Assembly: GCA_012960225.1 (NCBI GenBank)
Contig: DUBS01000056.1
Coordinates: forward strand, 46,894 to 110,893
Length of the DNA: 64,000 nt
Reading direction: 5' to 3'
Source: Gemmatimonadota bacterium
GTDB lineage: Bacteria; Gemmatimonadota; Gemmatimonadetes; Longimicrobiales; Gaopeijiaceae
Part shown: positions 7,497-14,991 of the stretch, piece after piece
Layout of the letters: each line of letters begins with the position of its first letter
Position numbering within the stretch: the first letter of the stretch is position 1
Notes under the pieces: generated by a model
Database searches by the model: none
What the model saw: the letters and a program-made list of their open reading frames with translations, nothing else
Told to the model about the DNA's origin: nothing
Made by a program: the position numbers and the translations under genes

Positions 7497-8828
7497 ATGC
7501 CTCCGGTGAAGAAACAGAAGCCCCGTTTCGAAGTTCGCTCAGCAGACTGGCTGACTTTGAAGCAAGCCCAAGAAGTGATCCTCTCCTCAGCTCAACATCT
7601 TTTATCTGAAAAATTGCCCATCCAGGCTTGTCTCGGTCGCTCCCTCTCTCAAGACCTAGTGGCTCGTGCGACACTTCCTCCTTGGGATAATAGCGCGATG
7701 GACGGATATGCAGTTCGTGGAGAGGAGATTTCACACGCCGGACCTTCAGCCCCTGTTGTATTGTCCGTGACAGGCGTGGTTCACGCAGGAGACTTGCCTG
7801 GGTCGAGTGTAGGAGAAGGGGAAGCAATACGGATAATGACTGGAGCTCCAATACCACCAGGAGCTGACTCGGTTATCCGAGTTGAAGACACTGACTCGGA
7901 GCAGACACCGGGAATAGTGAGTGTCTTCAAGAACCGTGACGAAAGACGCAACATTCGACCTGCTGGGCAGGATATGCAACTAGGGGACCAGGTACTGGTG
8001 GCAGGTACCACTGTCACTTCAAGAACAGTGGGGCTGCTGGCGGCGCTCGGCATGGAAAACGTTCCGGTGGTGAAACAACCTACCGTCGGTATACTTCCGA
8101 CAGGCGATGAGCTTCGTACACCAGAGAGATACGAGGATGTTCAGCGAGGAGAGGGAATACCAGAGTCGAATGGTCCAATGCTCGCCGCTGCTGTTACTGG
8201 CGCTTCTGCGATGCCCCTACCGTTAGGAATCGCTTCAGACGATCCGGAAACTCTCCGGGAACGAATATCTAAAGCCACTGACGCCGATGTCCTCATCACT
8301 ATCGGTGGCGCTTCGATGGGAGAGTCCGATCTAGTTAAGGAGATCTTAGAGGAATTCGGATTTGAACAGGACTTTTGGCGAGTCCGTATGCGGCCTGGAA
8401 GCCCCTTCGGATTTGGACGGCTTCCCCGTGGAGATACATATCAACCGGTCTTCAGCCTCCCAGGAAATCCCACGTCTGCATTCGTTACCTTCGAACTGTT
8501 CGTCCGCCCGTTTCTGCTGGCGATAGGCGGACACAAAAGGATCTTCCGACGGACACTCCGCTGTCAGGCCGCTGAACCTCTCAAGGGCCCAGGTGAACTC
8601 AGCCATTTCCTGCGTGTTTGGCTGGACTCATCCACGGTACCCCCTAAGGCTCATATCACAGGACCACAGGGTTCAGGTCTCATAACAACTCTAGCAGATG
8701 CTGAGGGGCTCGCGGTGGTATCAGAAAATCAAACCGAGATCGCTGAGGGAGACAGCGTCGATGTGATACTACTAGCTGATACGCCGGGTGCGGAAACCTA
8801 CACCGAGAGTGACTTCTCTACGGGATAG
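7497..8828 (+). CDS. moeA: Molybdopterin molybdenumtransferase MoeA
   Basis: Inserts molybdate into adenylylated molybdopterin, the last step in making the molybdenum cofactor. The 443 residues carry the family motifs in order: PPWDNSAMDGYAVR near residue 65, IMTGAPIPPGADSVIRVED, then the MPT-binding domain with PTGDELRTP, TIGGASMGESDLVKE and the loop RPGSPFGFGRL, and SLPGNPTSAF. The C-terminal domain IV is present. The ATG is three bases after the preceding stop, with no clear ribosome site, suggesting translational coupling. A mogA gene lies at 49.3-49.8 kb on the other strand; no other moa/moe genes are in the window. Confidence 0.96.
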   Translation: MPPVKKQKPRFEVRSADWLTLKQAQEVILSSAQHLLSEKLPIQACLGRSLSQDLVARATLPPWDNSAMDGYAVRGEEISHAGPSAPVVLSVTGVVHAGDLPGSSVGEGEAIRIMTGAPIPPGADSVIRVEDTDSEQTPGIVSVFKNRDERRNIRPAGQDMQLGDQVLVAGTTVTSRTVGLLAALGMENVPVVKQPTVGILPTGDELRTPERYEDVQRGEGIPESNGPMLAAAVTGASAMPLPLGIASDDPETLRERISKATDADVLITIGGASMGESDLVKEILEEFGFEQDFWRVRMRPGSPFGFGRLPRGDTYQPVFSLPGNPTSAFVTFELFVRPFLLAIGGHKRIFRRTLRCQAAEPLKGPGELSHFLRVWLDSSTVPPKAHITGPQGSGLITTLADAEGLAVVSENQTEIAEGDSVDVILLADTPGAETYTESDFSTG

Positions 8829-8842
8829 TCTCTGCCTCCTTG

Positions 8843-9832
8843 TTAATCTTCCGACTTGAGTGCCTTGATTGCCTCAGTCATGCGAGGGAGCACCTCAAAG
8901 AGATCCCCGACAATCCCATAATCCGCCATACTGAAGATCGGAGCATCTGGGTCTCGGTTTACTGCTACAATCGTCTGAGAAGTACGCATTCCTGCTAAAT
9001 GTTGGACAGCTCCAGAGATCCCAACTGCGATATAAAGCTTTGGGGCAACCGTTTTTCCAGTCTGACCAACTTGTTCAGCATGTGGTCTCCATCCCGCATC
9101 TACCACCGCTCTAGATGCGCCAAGTGCTGTGTCTGGACCGATCACATCTCTCAATTCCTCAAGCACTCGCCAATTTTCTGGATCTTTCAGCCCACGCCCT
9201 CCTGAGACAACAACCGCAGCTTCAGAGACATCAACCGCACCTTCTGCAGCACCCTTCCGCTCAATTACACGCACACACCACGTCTCAGAGTCTATATCAG
9301 GTATGAATTTGGATACCTGAATCTTGGAGTCATAATCACCAACAGGAAAAACATTTGGTCGAATAGTAACTATCACCGGGTCCGCATCTATCGAAAACCT
9401 AGTAAATGCCTTCCCCGAGTAGACAGGTCTGGTAAACAAGGGCACCCCATCTTGTACTTCCATGCCAGTAACATCTGACCCTAACGGGACATCAAGTGCC
9501 GCAGCCACCCTCGGCGCCAAATCCTTTCCGAGACTGCTTGCCGAGAAAAACAAGGCTTTGAAATTCCCGCTTCTAAGATGGTTTACAACTACTGGCAAAT
9601 AGGCTTCCGGGTTGTATTCGGACAACGCTTCATGCTCCGCAACAGCTACTGATGTTGCACCAGCAGTGGAGAGTCCTTCCGCCGCAGACGTCAAACCCGG
9701 ACCGCCAAGAACCAAGGCACTAGCTGATCCACCGATTTCGCTAGCAAGCTGAGCCGCCACACTTACAACTTCACGAGCTCCGCCACCTATTTTCCCTTCT
9801 CGCTGTTCTACGAAAGCGAGGACATCTGCCAT
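8843..9832 (-). CDS. etfA: Electron transfer flavoprotein alpha subunit
   Basis: The alpha subunit of the soluble ETF heterodimer, which passes electrons from acyl-CoA and other dehydrogenases to the quinone pool. At 329 residues it has normal length. The C-terminal FAD domain is clear: VVSGGRGLKDPENWR, GASRAVVDAGWRPHAEQVGQ, TGKTVAPKLYIAVGISGAVQ and NRDPDAPIFSMADYGIVGD. The N-terminal half is the usual nucleotide-fold domain. AGGAG at eight bases before the ATG is a good ribosome site. It follows etfB by 46 bases, the standard etfB-etfA order, and lies at the end of the nhaC-etfB-etfA chain. Confidence 0.96.
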   Translation of the reverse strand: MADVLAFVEQREGKIGGGAREVVSVAAQLASEIGGSASALVLGGPGLTSAAEGLSTAGATSVAVAEHEALSEYNPEAYLPVVVNHLRSGNFKALFFSASSLGKDLAPRVAAALDVPLGSDVTGMEVQDGVPLFTRPVYSGKAFTRFSIDADPVIVTIRPNVFPVGDYDSKIQVSKFIPDIDSETWCVRVIERKGAAEGAVDVSEAAVVVSGGRGLKDPENWRVLEELRDVIGPDTALGASRAVVDAGWRPHAEQVGQTGKTVAPKLYIAVGISGAVQHLAGMRTSQTIVAVNRDPDAPIFSMADYGIVGDLFEVLPRMTEAIKALKSED

Positions 9833-10658: not shown

Positions 10659-12065
10659 TCAGAGTGTGGCCCCGAGTAGGCCGAAACACACCGTTGCGAT
10701 CGCTCCACCCAACAGTGCGTACGGTAATTGCGTACGAACATGATCTATATGATCGGTGGCAGCTGCCATTGATGAGATGATCGTAGTGTCACTGATTGGA
10801 GAGCAGTGATCTCCAAAGACGCCCCCAGAAAGCGTGGCAGCCACAAAAGGTGCGAGCGGAAGACCAAGGGTCGCCGCGGCTGGAACTGCGATCGGCAACA
10901 TAATCGCAAATGTGCCCCAACTTGTTCCAGTCGAAAATGCTATACCTCCTGAAACTAAAAAGATGAGGGGCAAATAGATGTAATTAGGCATGGTACCCGC
11001 CGTGACTTGCGCGACATAGATACCCGTCCCCAGTACGTCGACAACATCTCCTAAGGCAAGCGCCAACAGAAGAATGAGAGCAAGTGGAACAAGTCCTCCA
11101 GCACCTTTGAGCCCGATTTTCACAAGCTCTTCTGTGCTAAATGCTCCCTGAACAAGAAGCATGATCCATGCGAGCGCCAACGCGAATAAAACTGACCATA
11201 GGACACTTGTCGATCCGGATCCGGCCGAGAGATCTCCTCCTCCAGTGATATACAATCCCAGCGGCATGAATAGAACCATACCGGCGATAGGAGCTATCAT
11301 ATTGAGCGCGTGTGGCTCGACTTTCTCAATGGGGGTTGGAGATAGTATCTCTTCATCGATCATCGGCGTGGAATCTGGCCAAAGAAGTTCACCACGGAGC
11401 GCACGCTCTTCTGCCTTCCTCATGGGTCCGATATCAATACCCCATAAAATCACAGCTAGGACCATCAGAATTGCAATAATCGCGTAGAAGTTCAGTAGCA
11501 CTGCATTCAAGAAAACCATCAAAGCATTCTCTACACCCAATCCCTCAAGGATACCCAGATTGTAGGCACCCCAAGCGTTCATTGGGATCAATATGCAGAT
11601 CGGAGCAGAAGTCGAGTCGATAATGTACGCGAGCTTCTCACGGGAACTCTTATAACGGTCAAAAAGAGGACGTGCGACCGAACCAGCCACTAAAACTGTG
11701 ATATTAGACTCGATGAAGATTACCATCCCTGTGGCCCAAGCGAGTAACTGAGATCTCTTGGCAGAATCGACCCACTTGTTTCTTTCCAAGAAGCGCACAA
11801 AGCCCCTCACTCCACCGGATGCCTCAACTGTCGCAATCAGAGCTCCGATGACGAGGGTGAATAGAATCACTTGGGCATCACTACCCAGCACATCAACCGC
11901 TCCCTGGATCGAGGCAGCTATTCCCGAAAGAGGATTCCATTCCGAAAGCATTGTCCAAGCGAGCCATAGGCCTCCAGCAAGTGACAAGTAGACCTGCTTT
12001 GTCCAAATCGCGAGCACAATCGCAAGCACAGGAGGTAGAAGTGAAGTCCAGTTGGGATCAATCAT
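10659..12065 (-). CDS. nhaC: Na+/H+ antiporter, NhaC family
   Basis: An inner-membrane secondary transporter of 468 residues with about 12 hydrophobic segments. The conserved block GGVFGDHCSPISDTTIISS near residue 415, with GIAFSTGTSWGTFAIMLPIA before it, is the signature of the NhaC/ArsB-like antiporters, which exchange sodium for protons. Its ATG overlaps the end of the glycosylase gene by eight bases and its stop is just before etfB, so it lies inside a minus-strand chain. A sodium antiporter and proton-type ATP synthase fit a marine or saline habitat (inference). Other organic-cation exchangers share this fold, so the substrate is probable rather than certain. Confidence 0.9.
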   Translation of the reverse strand: MIDPNWTSLLPPVLAIVLAIWTKQVYLSLAGGLWLAWTMLSEWNPLSGIAASIQGAVDVLGSDAQVILFTLVIGALIATVEASGGVRGFVRFLERNKWVDSAKRSQLLAWATGMVIFIESNITVLVAGSVARPLFDRYKSSREKLAYIIDSTSAPICILIPMNAWGAYNLGILEGLGVENALMVFLNAVLLNFYAIIAILMVLAVILWGIDIGPMRKAEERALRGELLWPDSTPMIDEEILSPTPIEKVEPHALNMIAPIAGMVLFMPLGLYITGGGDLSAGSGSTSVLWSVLFALALAWIMLLVQGAFSTEELVKIGLKGAGGLVPLALILLLALALGDVVDVLGTGIYVAQVTAGTMPNYIYLPLIFLVSGGIAFSTGTSWGTFAIMLPIAVPAAATLGLPLAPFVAATLSGGVFGDHCSPISDTTIISSMAAATDHIDHVRTQLPYALLGGAIATVCFGLLGATL

Positions 12066-12741
12066 TCAGGGAGTCCCCCTTACAGTTAGCAGGATGTCTC
12101 GACACCCCGCGGGCACCGTGAACATAGAACCGATAAGGCCAATCAGTTGCTTTCGTCACACCGATGCGACCGGAAGTCCGAACTGCTTTGTTCGAAAGCG
12201 TCCATCCTGACTCAAGTGCAAGTGGTGGTGATGTCAAACGATGACCCTGAAGTGCACCAGTAACTCCCATCGCCTGGGTCACTCGGCCAGGACCACGCGC
12301 AATCGGGTTCCGACCACCGCGTCGTTCTCGCATCACGTCTTCCCCATCTATCGGATCGAGCCCACGGATGAGAACAGCCTGTGCCTGGCTATCTAAACCC
12401 GTAACCACATTCATGCACCAGTGAATCCCATAGATTCTATAGATGTATACGTACCCAGAGGGGCCGAACATCACGGCATTTTGTTTGGTGATACCCATTA
12501 CAGTTGCAGCGTGTGAAGCAGGATCTTCCGGCCCACCGTAGGCTTCGGTTTCCACAATGACTCCCACAGTCCGTTCTCCTTCCAGATTGGAGACCAACCG
12601 ACATCCCAGCAGATTACGGGCCACCTCTACAACCGGTTTGTCTAGAAATCCACTAGCGAAACCCTGGGCTGGGAGGGACTCATCCCGCCATGGTTGCTCT
12701 CTGGGCAGAGTATCTAGCGATCTAATCCCGCATTCACTCAC
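12058..12741 (-). CDS. mpg: DNA-3-methyladenine glycosylase (AAG/MPG type)
   Basis: Removes alkylated purines from DNA as the first step of base excision repair. Family features are FLDKPVVEVARNLLGCRLV, IVETEAYGGPEDPASHA with the catalytic glutamate, MFGPSGYVYIYRIYGIHWCMNVV, AVLIRGLDPIDG, and the GPGRVTQAMGV loop. The open frame reaches back to 12918, but everything before 12760 overlaps the C-terminal coding of the NYN gene and lacks family similarity. A GTG at 12739-12741 gives 227 residues, near the family norm; this start is uncertain because no good ribosome site is seen. The end overlaps nhaC by eight bases. Confidence 0.92.
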   Translation of the reverse strand: MSECGIRSLDTLPREQPWRDESLPAQGFASGFLDKPVVEVARNLLGCRLVSNLEGERTVGVIVETEAYGGPEDPASHAATVMGITKQNAVMFGPSGYVYIYRIYGIHWCMNVVTGLDSQAQAVLIRGLDPIDGEDVMRERRGGRNPIARGPGRVTQAMGVTGALQGHRLTSPPLALESGWTLSNKAVRTSGRIGVTKATDWPYRFYVHGARGVSRHPANCKGDSLND

Positions 12742-12760: not shown

Positions 12761-14485
12761 TTAGCTGCGACCGCGGCCTCTAGGGCCACGGTCGCCACGG
12801 TTTCCAGCTTTGTTCGTGCTACTAGAAGTCCGGCGGGTGTAGTCGGTTCTCCATGCTGCAAGCACCTGCTCACCTCGATTACTAGGCAAGGCTGCCGCAA
12901 CACTGTCTGGGTTATCACGAAGCGTACGGAAAAGGTCCGGTCCGAACTGTTCGACCAAGGTCTCCGCTGTCTTCTGTCCCACTCCTTTGTACCGATGTGC
13001 CAGGTACCGCACGATTGCCTGAGGATCCGTCGGCAATCCTATACTTGATGCACTAAAATCTTCACCAGAAAAAGCCACCGAGTCGGACTCCTTCGGTAGA
13101 GATGTTCCAGCAGCCTGACCTTCGAACAGCGGCGGCAGGTCTTTCCCTCCCCGTCGACGAGTTGACCCGCGTCGGGGACCCAGACGTAAGCCAGACTCCG
13201 GCGAACTTGAAGGAACTACTTCAACGATTGATGTATTTGGTTGTTCCACGACCTCCGCATCAAGAGAGGTGTGGTCAGTTGCCTCAACGTCAGCTGAAGA
13301 TCCTTGAGTCCCTGCAGTTGTCTCATTCTTTGAATGAGAGTCTGGAAGAGATACTTCGAAATTTCCGCGATCAGTACGATCGGTAGAAATGATGCTGTGC
13401 TCTGTTGCTTGAACAAGAAAGCGGGAGAATTTTGGAAAGCCGAGCTCAGCCTCGTCGAAGTTACTATTCTTCTTCAGCATCTTTCGTTTGAGATCGGAAT
13501 CCCGCACTGGCTCACGTCCTAAAGTTCGGAAATCCTCTAAGACTGAAACGAGGAGTCGATAGGCTTCTTGCAGCGGATCGTCTGTGCTTCTAGAAACCTG
13601 TGAGATAGACTGATTAACATTGTCGCCAGAATGTTGGGGCTTGGAGCTTCTCTGACCCTGGCCACGGTGGGGACCTCTTTTGTCGTCCGCCTCCTCCTGA
13701 TTCGACCGACTTCGGTAAGGAGGACCAACCTCGTACTGGCCGTTCTCCCTCTTCTTTAGCGTGACCAAACCTCTCGAGGACGCCTCCGCTAAAAACTTAC
13801 TGAATTTACTGAATCCCATGCCCCGGTCATTAAAGAGGGGGTCAAGCTCCTGCATGACCTGCTTGAGGCGATCCGAACGCATAACATCACCTCGTGACAC
13901 CATCTTCTTCAGAGCTTCCTTGACAAGGATCCATGGATCACGAGCGGCTTGGGTTAATTCGGTGGTCTTGGTCAGCCCAGTCAAGCTCGTGTAGGAGTAG
14001 TACTCATCACAGTTTTGTACCAGGATGTCCGAACTAGACTCCCGAATCCCCACACCTATGACGTACTTGCCATACTCCTTGAGCTTAAGAACTAAGCTGG
14101 AAAAATCGGAGTCCCCTGTGAGGAGAATATAGGTTCCGATCTCTGGCCGAATAAAAACCAACTCGAGTGCATCAATCGCCATCCGGATATCAGTTGCGTT
14201 CTTCTTGTTACTCCCGTAAGCGGGAGCAAAAATGAGATCGACTGAAGCCTCTGATAGCGGCACAATATATTGGGGATACCGCCGCCAATCAGCGTAAGCA
14301 CGTTGGACGCTCACCTTACCCTTGATCACATCTGAATCGAGGAGGGTCTTGAGCTCTTTGGAGAGATCGCTGCGCATACCCATCGTGACATTGTCGAAAT
14401 CGATAAGTAGCGCGGCATGGGTAGAATCTGAGCCTACTGGGCCCAGGCCCCCTTGATGGGGGGCGTTGGTATACGGTGTACTCAT
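12761..14485 (-). CDS. NYN-domain putative nuclease with two OST-HTH/LOTUS domains and a C-terminal helix-hairpin-helix
   Basis: A 574-residue multidomain protein. Residues about 23-170 form a NYN (LabA-like, PIN-fold) domain with the acidic residues D29, D31, D99, D125 and D127 (IDFDN, ATDIRMAID, LTGDSDFSS), so metal-dependent RNase activity is likely. Two OST-HTH/LOTUS RNA-binding domains follow at about 183-255 and 303-382; both contain the G-F-x-K-F-S-x-F-L core. A charged linker leads to a helix-hairpin-helix near residues 495-545 (YKGVGQKTAETLVEQFGP) and an Arg/Gly-rich tail (RGDRGPRGRGRS). The ATG at 14483-14485 is preferred over the upstream 14533. It heads the chain with the glycosylase gene. 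The domain calls are solid; the substrate is unknown. Confidence 0.85.
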   Translation of the reverse strand: MSTPYTNAPHQGGLGPVGSDSTHAALLIDFDNVTMGMRSDLSKELKTLLDSDVIKGKVSVQRAYADWRRYPQYIVPLSEASVDLIFAPAYGSNKKNATDIRMAIDALELVFIRPEIGTYILLTGDSDFSSLVLKLKEYGKYVIGVGIRESSSDILVQNCDEYYSYTSLTGLTKTTELTQAARDPWILVKEALKKMVSRGDVMRSDRLKQVMQELDPLFNDRGMGFSKFSKFLAEASSRGLVTLKKRENGQYEVGPPYRSRSNQEEADDKRGPHRGQGQRSSKPQHSGDNVNQSISQVSRSTDDPLQEAYRLLVSVLEDFRTLGREPVRDSDLKRKMLKKNSNFDEAELGFPKFSRFLVQATEHSIISTDRTDRGNFEVSLPDSHSKNETTAGTQGSSADVEATDHTSLDAEVVEQPNTSIVEVVPSSSPESGLRLGPRRGSTRRRGGKDLPPLFEGQAAGTSLPKESDSVAFSGEDFSASSIGLPTDPQAIVRYLAHRYKGVGQKTAETLVEQFGPDLFRTLRDNPDSVAAALPSNRGEQVLAAWRTDYTRRTSSSTNKAGNRGDRGPRGRGRS

Positions 14486-14708
14486 TGAGTTTTTTCTCGC
14501 TAACCTAATTGTCTTTCCGCGAGACCTCCCCACCCCACTCGCATCGTTGGATCACCAATAGGGTCGGGGAAGCCTTTCGGGGATACCCACCATGGGTACC
14601 GCGCCCCCGTCGGATGGATCAACCCGCCGACTACACAAAGTGGGAGAAATCAATCCATCGCGTCTTGGCCGAATCCGTATCCGGCAGATCGCAATGAAGC
14701 AAATGAGA

Positions 14709-14864
14709 TCAGGAGTCTTGCTTACTTACGAGAATCTCGCAAAACGAGTCCAGAACCTCTTGTCCTATTGCGATCGCACCATCCACGGAAACGATCCAGG
14801 TACTGCTGGCTTTCATGAGTAGCTCGTCGGTCGAGCCAACTGCGGCCACCTTTAGTATCGCCAT
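14709..14864 (-). CDS. Possible 51-residue protein, unrecognised
   Basis: An ATG at 14862-14864 opens a 51-codon frame beginning MAILKVAAVGSTDELLMKAS and ending at a TGA at 14709-14711. TAGG lies eight bases before the ATG and could be a weak ribosome site. The sequence has ordinary amino-acid composition but no family is recognised. The start codon overlaps the palindrome at 14863-14877. It may be chance; it may also be the remnant of a longer gene. Confidence 0.2.
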   Translation of the reverse strand: MAILKVAAVGSTDELLMKASSTWIVSVDGAIAIGQEVLDSFCEILVSKQDS

Positions 14865-14991
14865 CTAGGACCTAGATTGAGCCCTAACCTCTAGGGGATA
14901 CCGGCGAAAGCCAAAGAAATAATAACGTTGTCCATCCACCCTACCAAATAGAGTCTCGGGTTACTATAGACTATCCGCAGGTCCTCAAGCG

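Follow-up and report, generated by a model that had tools for sequence, protein, structure and literature searches.

The window analyzed here (the whole stretch of 64,000 nucleotides, from a Gemmatimonadota MAG) contains a gene for a NYN nuclease fused to two LOTUS domains and a helix-hairpin-helix (HhH) domain, directly followed by a gene for a DNA-3-methyladenine glycosylase (Aag/MPG). As an earlier note on this DNA took the HhH domain and the neighboring glycosylase gene as hints of a role in R-loops or DNA repair, the question raised by this locus is whether the nuclease acts with the glycosylase in repair or whether it serves RNA decay. Our analyses indicate that a housekeeping role in RNA decay, rather than a function as a repair protein, is most likely. 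The features concerned are listed in Table 1.

Table 1. Positions of the NYN gene, its domains and two flanking features within the window
Feature	Position	Strand	Basis
NYN-LOTUS-LOTUS-HhH gene (574 aa plus stop codon)	12761..14485	-	Open reading frame and translation
NYN (DUF88/LK-nuclease), residues 24-164	13994..14416	-	Pfam PF01936 (1e-23); profile match to PDB 2qip (1.5e-11)
LOTUS1 / OST-HTH, residues 183-253, GFSKF motif	13727..13939	-	Pfam PF12872; PDB 2kpm (1.1e-5); confident model
LOTUS2 / OST-HTH, residues 304-381, GFPKF motif	13343..13576	-	Cross-match of LOTUS1 profile (1e-12); model pLDDT
RecD2/XPF/RuvA-type HhH, residues 483-553	12827..13039	-	Profile matches and AlphaFold fragment model
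RG-rich tail, residues 554-574	12764..12826	-	Translation, shuffle count
DNA-3-methyladenine glycosylase (Aag/MPG)	12058..12741	-	Pfam PF02245 (2.1e-59); NCBIfam NF002003 above cut-off
AMP-binding ligase remnant, decayed	14622..14989	-	tblastn, internal stops

The reading frame opens with an ATG codon at position 14485 of the minus strand and closes with the stop codon at 12761-12763, in agreement with the earlier note, which had also described the NYN aspartates as intact and the nuclease as joined to two LOTUS domains. Both descriptions hold. Residues D29, D31, D99, D105, D125 and D127 were invariant in all 47 aligned proteins, and D29, D99, D105, D125 and D127 were also kept in 5/5 sequences of a wider NYN-LOTUS alignment, i.e., the window protein, one Gemmatimonadota relative and proteins from Caballeronia, Eleftheria and Vibrio. 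This five-row alignment, used as a profile, gave the matches to 2qip and 2kpm in Table 1; these are the structures behind the nuclease and OST-HTH definitions of Anantharaman, Zhang and Aravind 2010 (PMC2848206, available text). Pfam PF12872 matched two stretches of the window protein (E = 9.9e-9), and the bounds of LOTUS1 and LOTUS2 were placed by profiles built in this analysis. A genome search by PF12872 was too insensitive to be used, as it gave no match even in the window, where hmmscan detects the domain. The AlphaFold model of LOTUS1 is a confident helix-helix-helix-strand-strand fold, and pLDDT exceeds 90 over most of LOTUS2. In the full-length model, most of LOTUS1, LOTUS2 and the HhH reached pLDDT values > 90, the linkers between them were modeled with low confidence, and NYN stayed at pLDDT < 50, perhaps because the NYN rows of the alignment are near-identical, although this is a guess.

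The C-terminal HhH named in the earlier note was likewise recovered. Pfam detected no HhH in the window protein itself; the NCBIfam RecD2 model TIGR01448 matched its residues 482-546 (5.3e-6). When the C-terminal regions of the window protein and 60 relatives were searched, RecD2 matched all 61 sequences and Pfam HHH_5 matched 51 of them, and the best PDB matches of the profile of this region were topoisomerase V and the XPF endonuclease (approx. 2e-4). Hairpin residues G501, G503, T506 and A507 are invariant; the second hairpin, as judged by eye from the alignment, has no GxG motif. Modeled alone, the fragment had a pLDDT of 85.6, and in VIA-align comparisons it aligned with RuvA, XPF/ERCC1, Hel308, UvrC, Pol beta and a flap nuclease (Z 4-6.6); the best of these was RuvA (Z 6.6 over 64 residues, 2.5 A), with no Z reaching 8. 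The VIA-align listing held no RecD2 chain, and absence there does not rule this family out, while Foldseek with the same model returned nothing below E 0.001. HhH domains are also able to bind RNA or proteins. In FEN/XPG flap nucleases the H3TH packs directly on the PIN-like core; a FEN/XPG-type arrangement was rejected for the window protein, as its HhH begins approx. 320 residues past NYN, behind low-confidence linkers.

The earlier note also described an RGG-like tail. Residues 554-574 contain NRGDRGPRGRGRS, and in the window protein, the linkers together with the tail hold 8 RG dipeptides vs. 2.6 in shuffled sequences. Among 113 proteins the mean was 8.6 vs. 4.9 in shuffles, and z exceeded 2 in 39% of the 112 scorable proteins. 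The RG enrichment in linkers and tail is thus real but modest.

The protein was found in all 39 near relatives (own genome included) and in 234 of the 249 genomes sampled from the phylum. The 15 genomes without it comprise the five sampled outside the class (0/5 positive) and ten inside the class, including both genomes of family f8. Separately, we observed that the protein is absent from both f8 and all five f10 genomes, and that the glycosylase also went undetected in the five f10 genomes. In 20 genomes from other families of the class, each with a single match, the NYN part (first 171 residues) showed 77-87% identity to the window protein, as compared to 70-75%, i.e., a lower identity, for ClpX in the same genomes. 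By reading, the best 80 of 391 contig-scan matches were all from Gemmatimonadota, three of them carrying the label Gammaproteobacteria; the proteins of these three (L093, L109 and L115) duplicate or nest among Gemmatimonadota ones, and the three are probably mislabeled bins. Among plasmids and phages, no relative covered 80% of the query and all were < 60% identical, and the HhH as query found RecD-like helicases only, in 5 plasmid records. One human faecal phage contig (MT836735.1, positions 8070-8861) encodes a relative with 26% identity over residues 90-380.

Two of the domains vary within the class. After 18 duplicates were dropped, our set held 124 distinct proteins, 117 of which reach a stop codon; among these closed proteins the HhH profile was positive in 93 and negative in 24. 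One of the negatives, L055, has a frame broken by Ns, and its DNA does encode the HhH; the other 23 make up the whole closed set of families f4, f5 and f6. The NYN plus LOTUS1 tree has 116 rows, 93 of them HhH-bearing and 23 HhH-less; on it, the HhH label changes once, on a branch with support 100/99, and since this tree is unrooted, gain and loss fit equally. The HhH is a clade-level trait found in part of the class only. LOTUS2 was detected in 110 of the 117 closed proteins and is weak in f5; in L043/L019 (G012), LOTUS2 is lost while NYN, LOTUS1 and HhH remain. Four proteins of family f3 (L050, L051, L053 and L054) are 1019-1069 aa long and continue for approx. 250-300 residues past the HhH.

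We consider it rather likely that the gene product is a core endoribonuclease belonging to the bacterial LK-nuclease/OST-HTH (MARF1/Limkain-b1-like) family and that, in one clade, the HhH keeps it close to DNA. NYN would cut RNA via a metal bound by the invariant aspartates, as judged from the family, in which the NYN domain of human MARF1 is a shown endoribonuclease (PMC6294520, available text). The two LOTUS winged helices, on flexible RG-rich linkers, would capture RNA, and this RNA is probably structured or rich in G; G4 RNA has been reported as a ligand of LOTUS domains, among them those of bacteria (available text of PMC12247748, citing Ding 2020). In one clade, the C-terminal HhH may, from its fold, tether the enzyme to the DNA backbone, and such tethering could place RNA cleavage close to the nucleoid or make it coincide with transcription. 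MPG, though very likely on the same transcript, is dispensable to this system. A role as the sole decay-initiating RNase in place of RNase E/Y was ruled out, as RNase E/G (20/21) and RNase Y (21/21) are both present; the enzyme would thus add to the usual RNA decay machinery. PADLOC yielded 0 families matched by the NYN-LOTUS protein or by the glycosylase, and membership of either protein in a known anti-phage defense system was rejected on this result. Conservation, single copy and the lack of a PADLOC match together speak for a housekeeping role.

To characterize the neighborhood, neighbors were counted by tblastn, since a simple ORF caller had overlooked NYN at 8 of 29 loci. The glycosylase assignment in the window is firm (NF002003, 200.3 bits vs. 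a cut-off of 182), and the likely GTG start of this gene lies 19 bases 3' of the NYN stop codon. Of the 111 loci with 800 or more bases of downstream sequence, 97 had MPG as the next gene, in the same orientation (101 pairs without this length limit). A 4-base overlap between a possible MPG start and the NYN stop codon was present in 23 of the 101 pairs; of these overlaps, 22 belong to the 34 pairs left when family f1 and the unlabeled loci are set aside. Given the adjacency and the overlaps, it is very likely, as far as gene arrangement can indicate, that the NYN gene and MPG share a transcript, as the earlier note had supposed. Upstream, an AMP-binding ligase (Pfam 1e-82) was found in 94 of 118 loci; at this site the ligase is intact (approx. 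535 aa) in most relatives and a relic in the window, where the remnant has 58% identity to a 119-aa open remnant in a congener (tblastn). The other neighbors were aroB (at most 4.5 kb upstream in 78/108 loci), nhaC (nearby in 57/98) and etfB (at most 4 kb downstream in 58/98). In families f4-f6, MPG was present in 18/23 loci and the ligase in 8/23, and aroB (0/23), nhaC and etfB (0/21 each) were missing. MPG is the most persistent linkage of the NYN gene. Neither of the two outcomes that the earlier note had named as refuting it, i.e., LOTUS or HhH domains going undetected by profiles and a neighborhood lacking conservation, was thus obtained. Among the neighbors in the annotated Eleftheria and Vibrio relatives, no glycosylase was seen.

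One reading of this neighborhood is that it represents inherited order only, i.e., a housekeeping RNase residing in a mixed operon (aroB, ligase, NYN, MPG, nhaC, etfBA) without functional links among its genes. It has, in our estimate, an even chance of being correct, and as it concerns the neighborhood alone it is compatible with a core endoribonuclease. The frequent presence of aroB upstream (78/108) and etfB downstream (58/98) is consistent with inherited order, as are the repeated changes in MPG and ligase adjacency (10 and 11 changes, respectively). On the other hand, MPG alone keeps its place next to the NYN gene in most loci throughout the class, frequently with an overlap, and it was not found elsewhere in 9 of the 10 genomes that were checked because MPG is missing from the site.

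If the nuclease and the glycosylase formed a functional pair, the two would be expected to be retained together; co-retention of NYN/HhH and MPG was tested, and the result came out against it. Among HhH-bearing families, 79 of 88 loci had MPG adjacent, vs. 18 of 23 loci among HhH-less families (P = 0.16; Fisher's exact test). The tree requires 10 or more changes in MPG adjacency, with NYN kept throughout, and in 7 independent row pairs with contrasting MPG adjacency, HhH differs in none, a comparison of low power given the single HhH change. Ten genomes without an adjacent MPG were searched as a whole; nine gave no match and one (G017) had MPG on another contig, where it should be considered that these MAGs may be incomplete and that other glycosylase families may be present. 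As the nuclease persists without MPG and MPG is seldom seen away from the nuclease gene, these data agree better with MPG as a passenger, or as a one-way client dependent on the nuclease, than with a two-way partnership. With MPG changing repeatedly while NYN and HhH stay unchanged, and with 18 of 23 HhH-less loci keeping MPG, the R-loop or repair role proposed in the earlier note is a weak reading, and this part of the note was not borne out.

The same data bear on the proposal of a damage module in which the nuclease and MPG act jointly, for example with the nuclease destroying alkylated or deaminated RNA and MPG clearing the same lesions from DNA, and in which the HhH binds damaged DNA or R-loops. 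The adjacency of MPG in 97/111 loci, the overlaps (23/101 pairs, with 22 among the 34 pairs outside f1 and the unlabeled loci), the absence of MPG altogether from 9 of the 10 checked genomes in which it is not adjacent, and the persistence of the pair in f4-f6 (18/23) when aroB (0/23) and nhaC and etfB (0/21) are gone would all agree with such a module. It is nevertheless improbable, as MPG adjacency shows 10 or more changes, HhH never differs within the 7 independent pairs, HhH and MPG are not associated (P = 0.16), and NYN is conserved far more strongly than MPG, which shows 38-45% identity in f4-f6. Still less probable is a surveillance unit in which a MARF1-like RNase was made DNA-tethered once via the HhH (or the HhH was lost once in the other clade) and is translationally coupled to MPG; here MPG would remove alkylated or deaminated DNA bases and the RNase would destroy RNA that bears these lesions or was formed across them. 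Least probable of all is a structure-specific DNA nuclease, in which a PIN-like NYN and an HhH would imitate the PIN-like core and the H3TH of flap endonucleases: the PIN/FLAP superfamily includes NYN (PMC6294520, available text), the HhH model aligns with flap nucleases (Z 4.0-4.5) and the C-terminal domain of Pfam 5_3_exonuc weakly matches 21 of 61 members, but the LOTUS domains point to RNA, and the HhH, approx. 320 residues from NYN behind low-confidence linkers, is missing from a whole clade.

The protein is of wider interest, as it is near-universal in a bacterial class and conserved above ClpX. The class includes cultured members. Since two natural versions exist, with and without HhH, both the role of the enzyme and the contribution of an HhH to an RNase are directly testable.

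Among known systems, the closest are the bacterial LK-nuclease/OST-HTH proteins, human MARF1 / Limkain b1 and Bacillus subtilis Rae1/YacP. Rae1 consists of one NYN domain and is not known to carry LOTUS or HhH domains. The 70-residue C-terminal domain resembles XPF and the N-terminal HhH of RecD2 in sequence and, as modeled, RuvA and ERCC1 in fold; unlike RecD2 and XPF, the window protein carries neither a helicase nor the XPF nuclease. Human MARF1 / Limkain b1 shares with it, as predicted from sequence, a domain of the NYN endoribonuclease family together with LOTUS domains, and the available source text mentions no HhH for the human protein. The description of LOTUS-NYN proteins in the earlier note as best known from eukaryotic germ cells was too strong, as they are not unusual in bacteria; its remark that the bacterial forms are poorly studied stands, in that no activity or functional study of any bacterial NYN-LOTUS protein was found among open-access papers. 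According to the available text of PMC2848206, almost all bacterial OST-HTH proteins consist of one or two OST-HTH domains fused to an N-terminal nuclease, the bacterial form is a possible standalone RNA-degradation enzyme whose genes lack conserved ties to known RNA-processing systems, and bacterial NYN-LOTUS proteins are proposed as likely ancestors of MARF1-type RNases; its main text makes no mention of HhH, a glycosylase or Gemmatimonadota. Open-access papers yielded no report of a NYN-LOTUS-HhH fusion; NYN with two LOTUS domains is thus already known in bacteria, and the HhH fusion appears to be a new addition. Like the bacterial LK-nuclease/OST-HTH proteins, the window protein has an N-terminal nuclease with conserved acidic residues, followed C-terminally by OST-HTH domains with the Ghxph motif, and matches 2qip and 2kpm; unlike the published ones, it has a C-terminal HhH, RG-rich linkers and a conserved neighbor gene.
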